A stretch of DNA of 13,756 bases from Deltaproteobacteria bacterium UBA2385 (GTDB lineage Bacteria > Myxococcota_A > UBA796 > UBA2385): contig DDSR01000350.1 of NCBI GenBank assembly GCA_002343455.1, positions 7,070 to 20,825 of the forward strand, written 5' to 3'. Below are positions 2,566 through 9,916 of the stretch, in pieces. The position numbers were made by a program, and so were the translations under genes. The notes beneath the pieces are model-generated. The model saw only the letters and a list, made by a program, of their open reading frames with translations. It did no database searches and was not told where the DNA came from. Each line of letters begins with the position of its first letter. Within the stretch, counting starts at the first letter, position 1.

Positions 2566-2642
2566 AGGACCTCCTCCCTGTTCTTTACCCCGTCGGCCGG
2601 ATGGAATAGACCGGTGGTTTGCTCCATGCGGATCCAGGGACG
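2566..2642. promoter_or_regulatory. Divergent intergenic region between SurA-like gene and ABC operon
   Basis: This 77-bp gap is less GC-rich than its surroundings and separates divergent genes, so promoters for both are expected. On the plus strand TTTACC (2584-2589) and TAGACC (2607-2612), spaced 17 bp, form a weak candidate for the ABC transporter operon. No clear operator palindrome is visible. The SD of the minus-strand gene lies at its left end. Confidence 0.28.
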
Positions 2643-3575
2643 ATGATTCGGGCCGACCACCTCAGCAAGCGATTCGGGCATCTGCACGCGGTGCGGGATG
2701 TCAGCTTCCAGGTGGAGAAGGGCGAGATCCTGGGCTTCATCGGCCCCAACGGTGCCGGCAAGACCACCACGATGCGCATGCTGACGGGCTTCATCCCCGC
2801 CAGCGAGGGGCGGGCCGAGGTGGCCGGCTTCGACGTCTTCGAGTCCCCGATGGAGGTGCGGCGCAGGGTCGGCTACCTGCCCGAGACCCCGCCGCTGTAC
2901 CGCGAGCTCAGCATCGGCGAGTACCTGCGCTTCGTCGCCGAGATCCGCGGGATCTCCCGCTCGCAGCAGATCGCCGCGGTAGGTCGGGTGATGGAGCAGG
3001 TGGGGCTCGCGGGCTGGGAGTCCCGCATCGTGGGCAGCCTCTCCAAGGGCTACCGCCAGCGGGTGGGGCTGGCTCAGGCCATCATCCACGACCCCCCGGT
3101 GCTGATCCTCGACGAGCCCAGCAGCGGCCTCGACCCGGCGCAGGTCGCGGGGATGCGGGACTTCGTGCGCCAGCTCGCCCAGGACCGGACCGTCATCCTC
3201 AGCACCCACATCCTGACCGAGGTGGAGCAGCTCTGCAGCCGGGTGGTCCTGATCAACGGCGGGCAGATCCTTGCGGACGAGGGCATCGACGAGATCCGGC
3301 GCCACGCCGGCGGAGGCGTGCGCTACCGCATCGAGCTGGGAGGCGCCGATCCCGAGTCCATCCCGGCCCAGGTCGGGGCGCTGGCCGAGGTCGAACAGGT
3401 CCAGCCGCTCCCTCCGCAGGACGGGCTGGCCGTGCTCGATGTGCGGGCCCCTGGCGATCCCCGCACGGCGATCGCCGCCCTGGCCACGGCCCGCGGCTGG
3501 TCGGTTCGAGCGATGGAGCGTCGGGTGCCCTCGCTGGAGGACGCCTTCCTGGCGCTGATCGGGGTGGAGCGATGA
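2643..3575 (+). CDS. ABC transporter ATP-binding protein, GldA type
   Basis: 310 residues from ATG 2643, preceded by AGGGA; an in-frame TTG at 2619 is possible but adds eight residues not typical of the family. All ATPase motifs are intact: Walker A GPNGAGKT (34-41), YLPETPPLY after the Q-loop region (78-86), signature LSKGYRQR (133-140), Walker B LILDEPSSGLDP (154-165) and switch His189 in STH. The YLPE-x-PPLY and LSKGYRQR variants are typical of the GldA/gliding-associated and drug/polysaccharide ABC-2 families. The C-terminal 80 residues form the accessory domain ending in PSLEDAFLALIG, also family-typical. It should energise the permease encoded next (3595). In Bacteroidota GldA with GldF and GldG is needed for gliding; in deltaproteobacteria the same set is widespread and its substrate is unknown. 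Confidence 0.92.
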   Translation: MIRADHLSKRFGHLHAVRDVSFQVEKGEILGFIGPNGAGKTTTMRMLTGFIPASEGRAEVAGFDVFESPMEVRRRVGYLPETPPLYRELSIGEYLRFVAEIRGISRSQQIAAVGRVMEQVGLAGWESRIVGSLSKGYRQRVGLAQAIIHDPPVLILDEPSSGLDPAQVAGMRDFVRQLAQDRTVILSTHILTEVEQLCSRVVLINGGQILADEGIDEIRRHAGGGVRYRIELGGADPESIPAQVGALAEVEQVQPLPPQDGLAVLDVRAPGDPRTAIAALATARGWSVRAMERRVPSLEDAFLALIGVER

Positions 3576-3594
3576 ACCCGACTGGAGGCGCGGC

Positions 3595-4308
3595 GTGACC
3601 ATTGCCTGGGCCATCTTCAAGAAGGAGCTGCGGACCTTCTTCGTCAGCCCGCTCGCCTACGTCTTCCTGGGCGTGTTCCTGCTGCTGGCGGGCTTCTTCT
3701 TCAGCATGGGCGTCTCCCTCACTGGCGAGGCCAGCCTGCGCATCATGCTGGCCAACCTCTCGATCAGCCTGCTCTTCCTGCTGCCCCTGCTGACCATGCG
3801 GCACTTCGCCGACGAGCGGCGGTCGGGCACCTTCGAGCTGCTGATGACCGCCCCGGTGCCGCTGTGGGCGATGCTGCTGGGCAAGTGGTTCGCCTCCCTG
3901 GCCCTCTGCGTCATCCTGCTGCTGGGGACCCTGCTCTTCCCCGGCATCCTGGCCTACTACGGTGACCCGGACTGGGGCGTCATCCTGACCGGCTACCTGG
4001 GCCTGCTGCTGGCTTGCAGCGCCTTCGTCTCGGCGGGGCTCTTCAGCTCCAGCCTGACCGACGAGCCTGTCGCCGCCGGGCTGATCGGCGTGGTCCTGCT
4101 CCTGCCCTTCTGGGTGGCCGGCTCGATCTCCGAGATGGTCGACACCGACGGCCTCCGCTCGGCCTTGCGGCACCTCTCCCTGCTGGCGCAGATCGAGCCC
4201 TTCAACCGCGGCGTGATCGACTCGGCGGCCGTGGCCTGGTTCCTGTTGGTCACCTTCGGCTTCCTCTTCCTGACCTGGCGCTCGATCGAGTCCAGGCGTT
4301 GGCGCTGA
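3595..4308 (+). CDS. ABC-2 type membrane permease, GldF-like
   Basis: 237 residues with six predicted membrane helices at about 20-40, 53-69, 97-120, 128-152, 159-178 and 211-228. The conserved cytoplasmic segment MRHFADERRSGTFELLMTAPV (68-88) is the hallmark of the GldF/ABC-2 permease family. The GTG start at 3595 has GGAGG at 3584-3588, six bases away. Its partners are the ATPase just upstream (19-bp gap) and the GldG-like protein eight bases downstream. Together they would form an inner-membrane ABC-2 complex. No substrate can be read from the sequence. Confidence 0.9.
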   Translation: MTIAWAIFKKELRTFFVSPLAYVFLGVFLLLAGFFFSMGVSLTGEASLRIMLANLSISLLFLLPLLTMRHFADERRSGTFELLMTAPVPLWAMLLGKWFASLALCVILLLGTLLFPGILAYYGDPDWGVILTGYLGLLLACSAFVSAGLFSSSLTDEPVAAGLIGVVLLLPFWVAGSISEMVDTDGLRSALRHLSLLAQIEPFNRGVIDSAAVAWFLLVTFGFLFLTWRSIESRRWR

Positions 4309-4316
4309 GGCCGACC

Positions 4317-5783
4317 ATGAACCAGATCTGGCGCCGCCGAATCGCCTACGGCTCGAACGCGACCCTCGTCTCGGTGATGATCATCGGGGTGCTGGTGCTC
4401 GTCTACCTGCTGGCGGACAGCCAGCGGGTGCGCTGGGACCTGTCGGCCGACGCCCTGAACACCCTGCAGCAGGACACCGAGGCCAAGCTCCGCGTCCTGG
4501 ACGACGAGCAGGTGCCGGTGCGCATCACGGCCTTCACCTACCAGCGAGGCAAGGACGACACCGTCCTGCGCGACCGGGCGGTGCGCGATCTGCTGGTCGA
4601 GCTCGACCTGCGCAGCGAGGTGCTGGAGTACCGCATCGTCGACTTCGATCGCGAGCGGCTGACGGCCGAGAAGCTCGGCGTGACCGACTACGGCACGGTG
4701 GTGGTGCAGCGGGGCGAGGACCGGATCGACCTGCGGGATCGGGACATGTTCCGCCGCAACCCGCGCAGCGCCGACCTGCCCTTCGACTTCCTGGGCGAGG
4801 GGGCCCTCTCCCGCTCCTTCGCCCAGCTCCTGGCCCCCACCCGCCGGGTGGCCTACGTCCTGCAGGGCCACGGCGAGCCCTCGCCCACGGACCGCGGCGC
4901 GACCGGCCTCTCCGAGCTGGTGACGGCCCTGGACCTGGAGCGCTACGAGGTCGCCCCCTTGGACCTGCTGCGCACCGATCGGGAGGGCCGAGGCCCGGTC
5001 GTCCCCGAGGACGCCGCCTTCGTAGTGGTCGCCGGCCTGCGCAGCGGCCTGACCCCACAAGAGGACGACGCCCTGCTGGCCTACCTCTCGGGGGGCGGCT
5101 CGGTCCTGTTGGCGCTCGAAGCGGGTCAGGCGGCCCCCTCCTTCCTCCCGCGGCTGGGCCTGCTGCAGCTCGAGGGTGTGGCCATGGACACCGTCCTGGT
5201 CTTCCCCTTCCGCGACCGTCCGGTCCCCGTCTACCGGGACCACGCGATCACGCAGGCGCTGCGGCAGAGCCAGAAGATCAGCGTGCTGGCGGCGCCGGCG
5301 CCGCTGCGGGCCACCGAACCCCTGCCCGAGGGCGTGCGCCACAGCCCGCTGCTGGTCGGCGGCCGCGAGAGCTGGATCGAGCGCGGCGGCCCCAGCGAGG
5401 GCGGAGGCGCCGCCTACCAGGCCGAGCTCGACGCCCCCGGCCCGACCCTGATGGCCGTGGCGGTCGACCTGCTCCCCGGCGGAGAGCTCGTGCGCCGGAC
5501 CCGGCCCCCGGCCAAGGTGCTGGTCGTCGGCGACGCCGAGTGGCTGACCAACGGGCTGCTGCTGGAGGGGCCCGGCAATCGGGACCTCGCGGTGGCCGCC
5601 GCCCAGTGGTTGGCCGGGGACGAGGCCCGCCTCAGCGCGACCGTCGGGCGCCCGACCGCTCAGCGACGGCTGGCCCTGACCGGCCAGGAGACCGAGCGGA
5701 TCCGCCTGATCTCGCTGCTGCTGCTGCCGGGCCTGGTCGCGCTGATCGGGCTCTTCACCTGGTGGGGGAGGCGCGGGCGATGA
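4317..5783 (+). CDS. GldG-like ABC transporter auxiliary protein
   Basis: 488 residues from ATG 4317, eight bases after the permease stop, with GAGG at 4307-4310. The longer open frame reaching upstream to 4014 lies inside the permease and is ignored. One N-terminal membrane helix (about 14-33) and one C-terminal helix (about 463-483, in RIRLISLLLLPGLVALIGLF) flank a large periplasmic region, the GldG/ABC_transp_aux arrangement. Visible family blocks are the opening DLSADALNTL, the YVLQGHGEPS motif near residue 180, and AAFVVVAGLRSGLT followed by DDALLAYLSGGGSVLLALE, a Rossmann-like half typical of the family. It probably acts as a periplasmic accessory to the ATPase/permease pair. Its TGA overlaps the next ATG as ATGA (5780-5783). 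Confidence 0.88.
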   Translation: MNQIWRRRIAYGSNATLVSVMIIGVLVLVYLLADSQRVRWDLSADALNTLQQDTEAKLRVLDDEQVPVRITAFTYQRGKDDTVLRDRAVRDLLVELDLRSEVLEYRIVDFDRERLTAEKLGVTDYGTVVVQRGEDRIDLRDRDMFRRNPRSADLPFDFLGEGALSRSFAQLLAPTRRVAYVLQGHGEPSPTDRGATGLSELVTALDLERYEVAPLDLLRTDREGRGPVVPEDAAFVVVAGLRSGLTPQEDDALLAYLSGGGSVLLALEAGQAAPSFLPRLGLLQLEGVAMDTVLVFPFRDRPVPVYRDHAITQALRQSQKISVLAAPAPLRATEPLPEGVRHSPLLVGGRESWIERGGPSEGGGAAYQAELDAPGPTLMAVAVDLLPGGELVRRTRPPAKVLVVGDAEWLTNGLLLEGPGNRDLAVAAAQWLAGDEARLSATVGRPTAQRRLALTGQETERIRLISLLLLPGLVALIGLFTWWGRRGR

Positions 5784-7294
5784 AGGCATTTCGTGGAACG
5801 CTGATCGCGGCGCTGCTGCTGCTGGCGGTGGCCGCCCTGGTGGTCTACCTGCGCCCTCCGGCGCCCGACGGGCTGCCGGTCGAGGGCGTGCGCATCTTCG
5901 CCTTCGAGAAGCACGAGCTGGTCTCGGTGCGGGTCGAGCGCCCCGGGGCCGAGCCGCTCAGCCTCGTCGAGAAGGACGGGGGCTGGATCATCGAGGGCTC
6001 GGGCTTCGCGGCCGGTCGGTCGATGGTCAACCGGGTCAAGCACCAGCTCCACGATCTCACCAGCCGCGCGACCGTAGTCGAGGCGCCCGACCAGCTCGAG
6101 CTCTACGGCCTGGGCGACAACGCCATCCGGGTCCGCCTGGGGCTGCGCGACGGGACCGAGCTGGCCTTCGAGGCCGGGGACCCCAACCCCAGCGCGGTCA
6201 GCTACTACATCCGGCCGCTGCCCGGCGATGTCATCTACACCGTCAAGAAGTCGGCGGTGGACTACTACTCCCTGACCCTCGACGAGTTCCGCGAGCAGCG
6301 CTTCGCCTCCTTCGAGAGCAAGGATGTGACCCGCCTGCAGGCCCTCATCCGCCTCCCGGAGGGCGAGGACAGCCCCGCGGTCGATCGCAGCCTGGTGCTG
6401 GAGCGGGTCGGTGAGCGCGAGTGGGAGATGCTCGACCCCGAGGTGATGGCCGCCAACGAGGACCGGGTCCGGCGGCTGCTGGGCAGGGTCAACGCGCTCA
6501 AGGCCCAGGGCTTCATCGCCGTGCCTGCCGATGACCTCGCCGCCCGCCTGCCGGAGTGGGGGCTGGACGCGCCCCGCCTGGACCTCAGCCTGAACTTCGC
6601 CAGCCGCGAGCCGATGCGCCTGCGGGTCGGCGCGGACGCCCCCTCCGAGAGCCGCTACGAGTCGCTGGCCTATGTGCTGGTCGACGGCGACGACACCGTC
6701 TTCATCGCCCGCCGCGGCCTGCTCGAAGAGTTCGCCTCGGACCTCCAGGAGCTCCGCAACCGCCGCGTGGTGCGGATGACCGAGCAGGATGTGCGCGCGG
6801 TGGACGTGGTGCTGCGCGCCGAGCCCCCGGACGAGGAGCTGGCAGGCCAGGCGGGGGTCCGCTTCGCCGCTGAGCGCTGGATGTGGCAGGACGGCGTCCC
6901 CGTCGCCGGCAGCACCCCCTCGCGGGTGGCGCGCTTCCTGGCCGAGCTGGAGGTCGAGGAGTTCGTCGAGGACAAGCCCGAGGACCTCGACCGCTACGGG
7001 CTGACCGACCCGGTGGCCCGGATTAGCCTGCGCAACGCCGAGGGCGAGGAGCGGGTGGTGCGCATCGGCGCGCCCGGACCCGCGCTGGTCGACCCCGAGG
7101 GCCGCGAGCGCGAGCGCCGCTACGCCACCATCGAGGGCGCCGACCCGGTCTACCTCGTCGACATGCGCGCGCTCAGCGTGGTGCGGGATCTCATCCGCGA
7201 GGGCAACCGCAAGAAGGAGAAGGACCTCGAGAAGGCCGGCCGGCTGGAGCGCATCCCCAGCGAGCTGCCCGAAGACGAAGCCCCGCCGGGTTAA
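5780..7294 (+). CDS. DUF4340 family envelope protein with three tandem repeat units
   Basis: 504 residues starting at an ATG that overlaps the GldG-like stop (ATGA). An N-terminal membrane helix (about 5-25) without a cleavage motif should anchor it with the rest in the periplasm. The body matches DUF4340, which often follows GldG-like genes. Three repeats are visible, anchored on YGLGDNAIRV (109), WGLDAPRLDL (260) and YGLTDPVARI (406). In each, a preceding helix ends in a GL turn, then come beta strands, a glycine-containing turn (VGA, IGA or AGD) and a closing strand such as VIYTVKKS, TVFIARRG or PVYLVDMR. The C-terminal 25 residues are Lys/Glu-rich. Biochemical function is unknown; context points to a partner of the Gld-type transporter. 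Confidence 0.86.
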   Translation: MKAFRGTLIAALLLLAVAALVVYLRPPAPDGLPVEGVRIFAFEKHELVSVRVERPGAEPLSLVEKDGGWIIEGSGFAAGRSMVNRVKHQLHDLTSRATVVEAPDQLELYGLGDNAIRVRLGLRDGTELAFEAGDPNPSAVSYYIRPLPGDVIYTVKKSAVDYYSLTLDEFREQRFASFESKDVTRLQALIRLPEGEDSPAVDRSLVLERVGEREWEMLDPEVMAANEDRVRRLLGRVNALKAQGFIAVPADDLAARLPEWGLDAPRLDLSLNFASREPMRLRVGADAPSESRYESLAYVLVDGDDTVFIARRGLLEEFASDLQELRNRRVVRMTEQDVRAVDVVLRAEPPDEELAGQAGVRFAAERWMWQDGVPVAGSTPSRVARFLAELEVEEFVEDKPEDLDRYGLTDPVARISLRNAEGEERVVRIGAPGPALVDPEGRERERRYATIEGADPVYLVDMRALSVVRDLIREGNRKKEKDLEKAGRLERIPSELPEDEAPPG

Positions 7295-7312
7295 GCGCCC
7301 GACTCTTCGGTC

Positions 7313-7317
7313 GGAGG
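7313..7317 (+). promoter_or_regulatory. Ribosome-binding site that sets the selenoprotein start
   Basis: GGAGG lies five bases before the ATG at 7323-7325, which opens the frame containing the in-frame TGA. The internal GTG at 7506, which a caller treating TGA as stop would choose, has only GAGG one base away. This supports 7323 as the real start. Confidence 0.75.
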
Positions 7318-7322
7318 CACCC

Positions 7323-8903
7323 ATGCTGCCCATCCTCATCCTGCTCTCCTGTCAGCCCGACCTCAGCCCGACCACCTCGGGCCAGGCGGTGGGCTTCGGC
7401 CTCGCCTTCTCCGGCAACGTGGACGGAGAGATCGAACCCTGTGGTTGACCGAAGAACCCTCGGGGCGGTCTGTCCCGTAGAAACCAGCTCCTCGGCGAGC
7501 GAGGCGTGGCCTTGCAGGCCCAGGGCCTGCCGCTCTTCGTGGTCGACGCGGGCGATCTTGGCTGGAAGTCGGCCAGCATCGCCCCCACCCTGGCCGGCCA
7601 GCAGCTCGAGAAGTTCGAGCTGCAGCTCCAGGCCTACGCCCTCGGCGGCATCGACGGCTGGACCCCCGGCGAGGGCGATCTCGCCTTGGGCCACGAGCGC
7701 CTGCAGGCCGCGGTCCAGCGCCACGGCACCCCCGCCCTGGCGGCCAACCTGCGCTGCGAGGGCGAAGAGATCTTCCCGGCCGGTCGGGTCGTGGAGCGCG
7801 GAGGCGTGCGCCTGGGCCTGGTCGGGCTGGTCGAGCCCACCCTGCTCGGCGCGGCCGGCATCGGCGGCTGCATCGCCGAGCCGACCCTCCCCGCCGCCAA
7901 GGCGGCCATCGACGCCCTGGGGCCGGTCGACGCCGTCGTCGTGCTCAGCCATATGAGCGCCGCCGCCGAAGCCGAGCTGGCGCCTGCGTTGGGGCGACCG
8001 GTGCTCTTCGTCAACGGCCATGAGCGCAAGAGCACTCCCCAGGCCGCAGCGCTGGGTTCGGGCTCGGTCCGGCTGGCCTCGGGCTCCCGGGGCAAGGAGC
8101 TCGGCTTCGCCGAGGTGCACTTCCAGGCCGGCGCCTCGGGCTTCCAGGCCGAGGCCGGCGCCGACGACGCCCGCAAGATCGAGCGCTTCACGGGTCGCCA
8201 GCAGATCGCCCGAACCAAGCTCGACGCCGCCGCTCCAGGCAGCGCCGAGGCGACCCAGGCCCAGAAGCAGGTCGACTTCTACCAGGCCGAGATCGACGCC
8301 GCCCGCAAGCGACTGCAGGCCGCCTCCACCGACCAGGGCCCCCGCCACGCGCTCAGCGTGCAGATCGTCGACCTGGGCAAGGACGTGGCCGACCACGCAG
8401 CGACCTTGAGCCTGGTCGAGAGCGCCAAGACCCGGATCGCGGCGGCCGACGCCCAGGCGGGCCCCACCGCGCCGGCCTCGCTGGGGGACTCGGCCTGGAA
8501 GGGCTCGGTCTGGGGGGGCTCGGCATCCTGCCTCTCGTGTCACCCCACCCAGCACGCGCAGTGGGCCTCGACCCCCCACGCCTCCGCCTGGACCCGGCTG
8601 GTGCAGGTCAACCGCCAGTCCGACCAGGCCTGCTTCTCCTGCCATGTGACCGGCGCCTTCGCCGAGGGGGCCCCGGCGACCGCCTCGGCCGTCCCCGCCG
8701 AGCTGCACGCCGTCGGCTGCGAGGCCTGCCACGGCCCCGGCGCCGCCCACAGCGCCGATCCCGCGGCCGGCGCCATCGTGCGAGACCCCCCGGTCGAGGT
8801 CTGCCAGCAGTGCCACGACGGCAAGATGGACGAGGGGCGCTTCGACCTCCAGACCTACCGGCCGCGGGTCCTGCACGGCCCCGCCGCGGAGCCTGCACCC
8901 TGA
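7323..8903 (+). CDS. UshA-like selenoprotein (Sec42) fused to a tetrahaem c-type cytochrome; lipoprotein
   Basis: Read through an in-frame TGA (7446-7448), the gene encodes 526 residues. Residues 1-10 (MLPILILLSC) are a short lipoprotein signal with lipobox LLSC and Cys10. Residues 24-230 resemble the UshA/5'-nucleotidase metallophosphatase fold: SGNVDGEIEPCG-Sec (30-42), PKNPRGGLSRR, VVDAGDLG, AANLRC, VLSHMSA, VNGHE. The first metal motif is replaced by Cys40-Gly41-Sec42. About 270-330 is helical, probably coiled coil. Four CxxCH haem sites follow at 403 (CLSCH), 437 (CFSCH), 466 (CEACH) and 494 (CQQCH), a cytochrome c554-like tail. The export signal and haem sites imply a periplasm-facing, membrane-anchored protein. 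I recall public families named UshA-like (seleno)protein with Cys or Sec here but cannot check. Role inferred: redox or metal chemistry at Cys-Gly-Sec linked to haem electron transfer. Its TGA at 8901 overlaps the tsaD ATG by one base. The alternative is a pseudogene with a nonsense mutation. Confidence 0.85.
7442..7486 (+). promoter_or_regulatory. Bacterial SECIS element downstream of and around the TGA
   Basis: Core hairpin: CGGGGC (7461-7466) pairs with GTCCCG (7472-7477), six pairs including one G-U, closing the five-base loop GGTCT (7467-7471). The loop starts with GG and lies 18 nt after the TGA, within the remembered bacterial SECIS range (about 16-37 nt; a G among the first two loop bases). 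An outer helix TGGTT (7442-7446) with AACCA (7482-7486) places the first U of UGA at its top, like the E. coli formate dehydrogenase element. In this model it would bind SelB with Sec-tRNA. Pairing was done by eye, not by folding software. Confidence 0.78.
7446..7448 (+). other. Selenocysteine codon (in-frame TGA, Sec42)
   Basis: TGA follows E-P-C-G (GAA CCC TGT GGT) and precedes P-K-N-P-R-G-G. In relatives as I know them this position is the second Cys of E-P-C-G-C, so TGA replaces Cys rather than a random residue. The frame is open on both sides and the downstream sequence keeps family motifs without a shift. Confidence 0.85.
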
Positions 8904-9916
8904 TGATCGTGCTCGGGATCGAGAGCTCCTGCGACGAGACGGCTGCGGCCGTGGTGGGCCCAGGGCCCGAGGGGCGCACCGTGGTGCTCTCGGACGTCAT
9001 CCACAGCCAGGCCATCCACCTGCAGTACGGGGGCGTGGTCCCCGAGCTTGCCAGCCGGTCGCACGCCGAGCAGGTCATCCCCACCGCCCGCGCCGCCCTG
9101 GCGCAGGCGGGGATCGACCGTCCCGACGCCGTCGCCGCGACCGCGGGGCCCGGCCTGCTGGGTGCGGTCCTGGTCGGCCTCTGCTTCGCCAAGGCCCTCG
9201 CCGTCGGCTGGAAGCTGCCCTTCGTCGGGGTCAACCACCTCGAAGGCCACCTGCTCTCGCCCCTGCTGGAAGAGCCCGGCCCCCGCTGGCCCTTCCTGGC
9301 GCTGGTGGTCAGCGGCGGGCACACCACCCTCTACCTGGCCCGCGGGTTGGGGGACTACCCGGTCCTGGCCAGCACCGTCGACGACGCCGCCGGCGAGGCC
9401 TTCGACAAGGTCTCCCGGCTCCTGGGACGGGGCTACCCCGGGGGGCCGATCATCGACGGGCTCGCCAGCAAGGCCCAGGGCGACCGCTACGAGCTGCCTC
9501 GCCCGATGGTGCGCGAGCGCACCCAGCTGCGCGCCGTCCACGACTGGTCCTTCTCGGGCCTGAAGACGGCCGTGCGCACCCTGCTGGAGAACCAGCCCGA
9601 TGCCGCCGAGGCCGACGTGGCGCGGGCCTTCCAGGAGGCGGTCGTCGATGTGCTGATCGACCGGGTGCTGGCCGCCGTGCAGTCCACCGGCGTGCGCGAG
9701 GTCGCCCTCAGCGGGGGGGTGGCCGCCAACAGCCGCCTGCGGCAGCGGCTCCAGGAGCTCGACGCCCAGGGGCGGCTGCGCCTGACGCTGCCGCCGCGCT
9801 CGCGCTGCACCGACAACGGCGCGATGATCGCCCATGTCGGCCGGCTGCGCCTGCTGGCCGGTCAGACCGACCCCCTCTCCCTGCCGGCCCGACCGCAGTG
9901 GACACCAGGGACATGA
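8903..9916 (+). CDS. tsaD: tRNA N6-threonylcarbamoyladenosine synthase subunit TsaD
   Basis: 337 residues, standard length. TsaD transfers the threonylcarbamoyl group to A37 of ANN-decoding tRNAs with TsaB and TsaE, which are not in this window. Motifs are complete: LGIESSCDET (4-13), HSQAIHLQYGGVVPELASR (34-52), the metal-binding HLEGH (His112, His116), VSGGHTT (136-142), SGGVAANSRLR (270-280) and CTDNGAMIA (302-310). The ATG overlaps the selenoprotein TGA (TGATG), with GGAG about a dozen bases upstream. The stop overlaps the ATG of rsmA (ATGA). Cytoplasmic. Confidence 0.97.
   Translation: MIVLGIESSCDETAAAVVGPGPEGRTVVLSDVIHSQAIHLQYGGVVPELASRSHAEQVIPTARAALAQAGIDRPDAVAATAGPGLLGAVLVGLCFAKALAVGWKLPFVGVNHLEGHLLSPLLEEPGPRWPFLALVVSGGHTTLYLARGLGDYPVLASTVDDAAGEAFDKVSRLLGRGYPGGPIIDGLASKAQGDRYELPRPMVRERTQLRAVHDWSFSGLKTAVRTLLENQPDAAEADVARAFQEAVVDVLIDRVLAAVQSTGVREVALSGGVAANSRLRQRLQELDAQGRLRLTLPPRSRCTDNGAMIAHVGRLRLLAGQTDPLSLPARPQWTPGT

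Follow-up and report, generated by a model that had tools for sequence, protein, structure and literature searches.

A putative UshA-like selenoprotein with a fused tetrahaem cytochrome domain, read across an in-frame TGA in Deltaproteobacteria bacterium UBA2385

We analysed a stretch of 13,756 nucleotides from Deltaproteobacteria bacterium UBA2385 (contig DDSR01000350.1, positions 7,070 to 20,825 of the forward strand), hereafter the window, in which a forward-strand gene at 7323–8903 is interrupted by an in-frame TGA. A GGAGG ribosome-binding site, read directly from the sequence at 7313–7317, lies 5 nt before the ATG at 7323. On translation, the frame runs from MLPILILLSCQPD to SGNVDGEIEPCG, that is, through a lipoprotein-like signal (MLPILILLSC with a lipobox-like LLSC, 7323–7352) and on to ...GEIEPCG, reaches TGA at 7446–7448 and then stays open to a terminal TGA at 8901–8903, with no other stop between. 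When TGA 7446 is taken as selenocysteine (Sec), the product has 526 residues and includes SGNVDGEIEPCG-U-PKNPRGGLSRR. It is predicted, from sequence and modelled fold, to be a 5′-nucleotidase/SoxB-type domain with a Cys40-Gly-Sec42 motif (Cys40 being the TGT at 7440–7442) fused to a C-terminal tetrahaem c-type cytochrome domain. Four CXXCH motifs (residues 403–407, 437–441, 466–470 and 494–498), the first of which is CLSCH at 8529–8543, bear out the tetrahaem part claimed in the original prediction, an earlier note on this DNA that also placed the ribosome-binding site, the ATG, the TGA, a GTG at 7506 and the continuing frame correctly. We put the probability that the gene encodes a selenoprotein of the UshA-like family, with TGA 7446 decoded as Sec as the original prediction proposed, at about 0.94; support for the decoding comes from the TGA column, Cys-containing relatives, frozen codons in a downstream loop and the Sec machinery of the genome.

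The same TGA recurs across the class. Searching 71 class genomes with the profile NF041198 (E ≤ 1e-40) gave a match in 57, and in 55 of these the gene copy has exactly one in-frame TGA; the remaining two matches (G299 and G307) begin only at profile positions 85 and 182, behind the TGA column. The DNA at the TGA was read in 55 genes, namely 49 motif-selected genes (window included), L025 and five others (L090–L094), and all 55 have P-C-G-U ahead of a G-L-x-R stretch, a region in which L025 contains masked N bases. The partner position of Cys40, two residues before the TGA, is Cys in 49/49 Sec-type genes and in the six read without the motif, the search motif having accepted C, U or S there. 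All 49 Sec-type genes also encode four CXXCH motifs, and their frames stay open for at least 350 codons past the TGA. A pseudogene or a sequencing error at 7446 would account for a lone stop in an otherwise open frame, yet the recurrence of one in-frame TGA in 55 of 57 genomes and the length of the open frames behind it make this explanation vanishingly improbable; sequencing error, a check that had been called for, is excluded because the TGA recurs in 55 class genomes. A second family match without TGA, possibly a paralogue, stands beside the Sec copy in G287, G193, G198, G009, G132, G246, G174, G003 and G256.

Outside the class the column mostly holds cysteine, as expected from the claim that TGA occupies the second Cys of E-P-C-G-C; the outcome that would have spoken against it, homologues with neither Cys nor Sec, was not seen. 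Cys stands at the column in 19 of the 21 loci that lack the TGA and come from other classes, 14 of these being assigned by motif and five by profile alignment (L046, L082, L084, L085 and L086), with L043 and L079 left without assignment; the codon is TGC or TGT in the 14 Cys-type loci for which it was printed. A scan of named genomes added a single distant locus (L016), again with Cys at the column. Four database proteins, P0041, P0059, P0063 and P0065, are closer Cys-type relatives: read at the protein level, they have EPCGCP and align over 97–100% of the query at 37–38% identity. One branch of the tree (100/100; midpoint root) separates the 49 Sec-type rows from the 14 Cys-type rows, so that residue type (Sec or Cys) and clade are confounded in this set. 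These rows were picked by a motif fixing P, C/U/S, G, C/U, GG and R/K; the motif therefore dictates the Cys or Sec residue found at the column as well as some of the peptide conservation, and codon choice did not enter into it. The motif match was absent in 8 of the 71 loci examined (the window and L017–L086); L025 and L090–L094 (TGA with GGTCT), as well as the five Cys loci aligned by profile, were read without it.

Standard gene calling misses the upstream part, as the original prediction anticipated. With translation table 11, only a 465-amino-acid open reading frame (ORF) starting at GTG 7506 is called, and this truncated form is protein database entry P0002. Among 112 database homologues, whose named members come from Myxococcota and Oligoflexia, 14 contain PCGC, and in the remaining 98 the first 140 residues do not include the part with this motif; the median length in this comparison is 446 amino acids versus 526 for the window protein. 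Short homologues without the PCGC part are what would be expected if calling starts behind the Sec codon, the presumed cause of this annotation problem. Taken at face value, the called ORF and the 98 homologues favour a product that truly begins behind the TGA, at GTG 7506 or a different start codon, with the upstream part excluded. Against such a late start, the peptide encoded ahead of the TGA is conserved while its synonymous codons vary (a fixed Gly at −7 and a fixed Pro at −3 are each encoded by four different codons), and Cys-type relatives have one continuous frame through the column. The short form also has no export signal, as had been claimed, and such a signal is required for c-type haem attachment. 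We regard a late start as highly improbable. Export precedes both c-type haem attachment and lipoprotein maturation, and the window product is probably an exported lipoprotein: full-length Cys-type relatives have comparable N termini, MLPLFLVLGLGC and MLPLIFALGIGC, and 40 of 49 Sec-type genes have a lipobox pattern no more than 60 residues ahead of the TGA, the pattern being loose and not anchored to any start codon.

Fold and conservation together predict a bacterial selenocysteine insertion sequence (bSECIS) hairpin at 7459–7480, directly behind the TGA, with 8 bp and an apical loop GGUCU at 7467–7471. Counting the U of UGA as nt 1, GGUCU occupies nt 22–26 in 54 of 55 class genes, the window gene among them (48/49 motif-selected, L025 and 5/5 others), and GGTCT begins at the same nt 22 in Escherichia coli fdhF as read from NC_000913.3. 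The loop is kept in 25 of 26 representatives after clustering at 50% identity; synonymous recoding preserves it in 14%. Its two glycines are encoded by GGC in 49/49 and by GGT (Gly at +7) in 48/49 Sec-type genes. By comparison, GGT accounts for 13.9% of the Gly codons at other sites of these genes and stands at the +7 site in 0/14 Cys-type genes. Gly at −7, ahead of the TGA, is unlike these loop glycines in using all four codons. The window hairpin, with its 5-nt loop starting with G, a UGA–loop spacing of 18 nt and an energy of −11.0 kcal/mol, fits the constraints of the bSECIS model as given in section 5 of PMC13188914.

The source genome, a draft of 6.76 Mb in 496 contigs that is 87.6% complete, encodes most of the machinery that the original prediction had named as a check. 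It has a tRNA-Sec gene (selC; 65.4 bits, above cut-off, anticodon TCA), selA (469.6 bits) and selB (273.8 bits), the last as a 610-amino-acid ORF with EF-Tu-like, SelB wing-2 and SelB wing-3 domains; selD, also on that list, was not found in the draft. TGA is reassigned in some bacteria, a precedent for reading it here as Trp or Gly, or for readthrough by a near-cognate tRNA without selenium. This is nonetheless very improbable given the Sec machinery in the genome, the constrained loop codons and relatives that have Cys, neither Trp nor Gly, at the column. The same frame, moreover, terminates in TGA at 8901–8903, overlapped by the start of tsaD.

The family itself has been catalogued. NF041198 (UshA_like_PCGU) combines a PCG-U motif, a UshA-type domain and a C-terminal multihaem part, as does the window protein, which has the PCG-U/C motif at residues 39–42. 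The extended frame, with Sec read as Cys, scores 254.2 bits against this profile versus 209.7 bits for the truncated ORF, and its alignment is near full-length (profile positions 18–514 of 519). A match exceeds the curated whole-protein cut-off of 275 bits in 19 of the 71 class genomes. On sequence, the window gene is a divergent NF041198 homologue below that cut-off and not a formal member. Several members above the cut-off have the tsaD/DUF4340 context described below and fall on the Sec side of the tree, as the window gene does. Since members above and below the cut-off have the same context, the window gene is most plausibly a divergent orthologue of the formal members. The sections of PMC13188914 consulted tabulate NF041198 as a CxU selenoprotein family, which, together with the profile match, identifies the catalogued family mentioned in the original prediction. 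A UshA-like CxU selenoprotein also appears in the part of PMC9312934 consulted, and the corresponding part of a 2008 study of ocean metagenomes (PMC2398784) has a COG0737 UshA-like CxU row. In the accessible parts of the literature on the family, subscription papers lying outside the search, no functional test of UshA-like/NF041198 selenoproteins is reported; judged by their listings, paper searches on MccSep and on selenoproteins or the selenoproteome of Myxococcota or myxobacteria yielded nothing useful.

Several observations weigh against the assignment. The window protein falls short of the NF041198 cut-off (254.2 versus 275 bits), and MLPILILLSC is short and without a basic residue, a reservation on the lipoprotein signal. 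One class gene, L019, has GGACU in place of GGUCU. In minimum-energy folds, the bSECIS model was matched by 39/49 Sec-type genes and missed by ten, versus matches in 5/14 Cys-type genes and 749/1960 (38%) synonymous recodings. The mean hairpin energy is not below that of synonymous recodings (−11.1 versus −12.05 kcal/mol), and the window fold energy is not unusual (z 0.30 and 0.25). Base-pair covariation is mixed, with pair 17–31 being TA in 25, GC in 4 and unpaired in 20 of 49 genes, and an Rfam search of 7320–7620 at a permissive threshold returned no SECIS family match. Because folding energy alone fails to single out the hairpin, the case for it rests on the frozen loop codons, which are the stronger evidence. 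In the machinery, selD was not found in the 87.6%-complete draft (best match 35.4 bits, cut-off 125); of the 71 class genomes, 61 have selD above cut-off, including G241 of the same genus. Finally, 14 class genomes, chosen for a weak or no tRNA-Sec match in a search of 377 genomes of the phylum, have no tRNA-Sec above cut-off even with laxer filters, and 13 of them have the TGA gene. In 11 of the 14, selB is above cut-off. The missing tRNA-Sec matches are probably due to gaps in the assemblies or to tRNA-Sec genes that have diverged.

What the protein does is suggested by its altered metal site. Residues of about 21–378 share the fold of the SoxB thiosulfohydrolase and the UshA 5′-nucleotidase, so the description of the product as UshA-like stands for the fold. 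It does not extend to the DxH metal-ligand pair of those enzymes: the window protein lacks the pair and instead has the C-G-U motif and haems. The DxH positions, 10 and 8 residues before Sec, are part of N-V-D in the window protein, and the pair occurs in at most 1/49 Sec-type genes (D in 1/49, H in 1/49). Two further motifs are replaced in the window protein, GNHE by GEGD and GHxH by GHER. The loss of the pair suggests a haem-wired Cys/Sec redox enzyme rather than a nucleotidase. On the haem side, cytochrome c554 (1bvb) and 6i5b match the C-terminal domain in sequence; these matches are confined to the haem part, with none reported for the part containing the Sec motif. The proteins ExtKL (NF040886) and MccSep (PDB 9wt8), whose names mark them as multihaem cytochrome selenoproteins, match weakly and only over the haem part (E 0.045 and 0.22).

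We consider the odds roughly even that the Cys-Sec pair took over as the active site and exchanges electrons with the four haems. SelB, charged Sec-tRNA and the hairpin behind the codon are expected to decode TGA 7446 as selenocysteine, a step supported by comparative evidence, and the product is probably exported as a lipoprotein; in such an enzyme, a C-G-U selenenylsulfide centre would sit in the place of the former metal site. There the pair could form a selenenylsulfide or attack an oxidised sulfur, selenium or peroxide substrate, while the four fused haems supply it with electrons or take them away. These substrate classes are a guess prompted by the SoxB fold and Sec chemistry. The fuller picture, a metallophosphatase fold rebuilt as a redox enzyme in a class-wide lipoprotein, its metal site replaced by Cys-Gly-Sec wired to a tetrahaem domain and an fdhF-like SelB loop kept in the mRNA, we advance tentatively, at slightly less than even odds. 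Two points tell against a redox role: it rests on sequence and predicted fold, and the DxH His is mostly gone in Cys-type relatives too (retained in 1/14), so that the loss is not tied to Sec. A domain that has kept a hydrolase function of the nucleotidase or thiosulfohydrolase type, in which the inserted Sec binds metal or has a structural role, would be in keeping with the shared fold; given a DxH pair in at most 1/49 Sec-type genes and the replacement of GNHE and GHxH, we think it unlikely.

Because the family is already catalogued, the decoding is known in kind. What is new is a divergent, sub-cut-off relative of NF041198 belonging to a class-wide orthologue group mostly found beside tsaD/DUF4340, together with the loss of the DxH pair in Sec-type genes. 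Because the Sec motif occurs here together with a tetrahaem domain, the loss of a metal-ligand pair and a conserved gene neighbourhood, a function can now be tested; we infer the haem-wired redox reading as an open proposal of that kind.

The neighbourhood is compact. Downstream on the same strand, tsaD (8903–9916; Pfam TsaD, 1.9e-86) starts with an ATG at 8903 that overlaps the terminal TGA, and directly upstream, at 5777–7294 on the forward strand, Pfam identifies a DUF4340 protein that ends an ABC-2/GldG-like/DUF4340 cluster (2619–7294). In the fetched stretches, tsaD is present at 35/49 Sec-type loci versus 0/21 other loci and DUF4340 at 34/49 versus 0/21, where the Sec-type loci are those besides the window (L017–L027, L030–L034, L036–L038, L040, L042, L045 and L047–L073) and the others are the rest of L017–L086; many stretches end at contig ends or have short flanks, and in a few tsaD is 1–3 kb off. 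The order of ABC-2 ATPase, permease, GldG-like and DUF4340 genes, then the selenoprotein gene and tsaD (2619–8903), recurs in many same-order loci. Elsewhere in the window, 532–1470 encodes a 312-amino-acid protein with a C terminus that is TonB/AgmX-like by impression; Pfam gives it no match at E ≤ 0.001.

We looked for a strict association of tRNA-Sec with the TGA and did not find one: G342 and G066 have tRNA-Sec and a Cys-type copy, and the 14 chosen class genomes have no tRNA-Sec above cut-off. Genomes including G068, G170, G009, G213 and G132 have selB and the TGA gene with no tRNA-Sec above the Rfam cut-off, three of them (G068, G170 and G009) despite being 94–97% complete. Across the phylum, tRNA-Sec is above cut-off in 250 of 377 genomes, and selenocysteine use is, by this count, apparently widespread. 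Among the selD rows listed for the class, many hold a single in-frame TGA, and SelD itself may thus commonly be a selenoprotein in this group.
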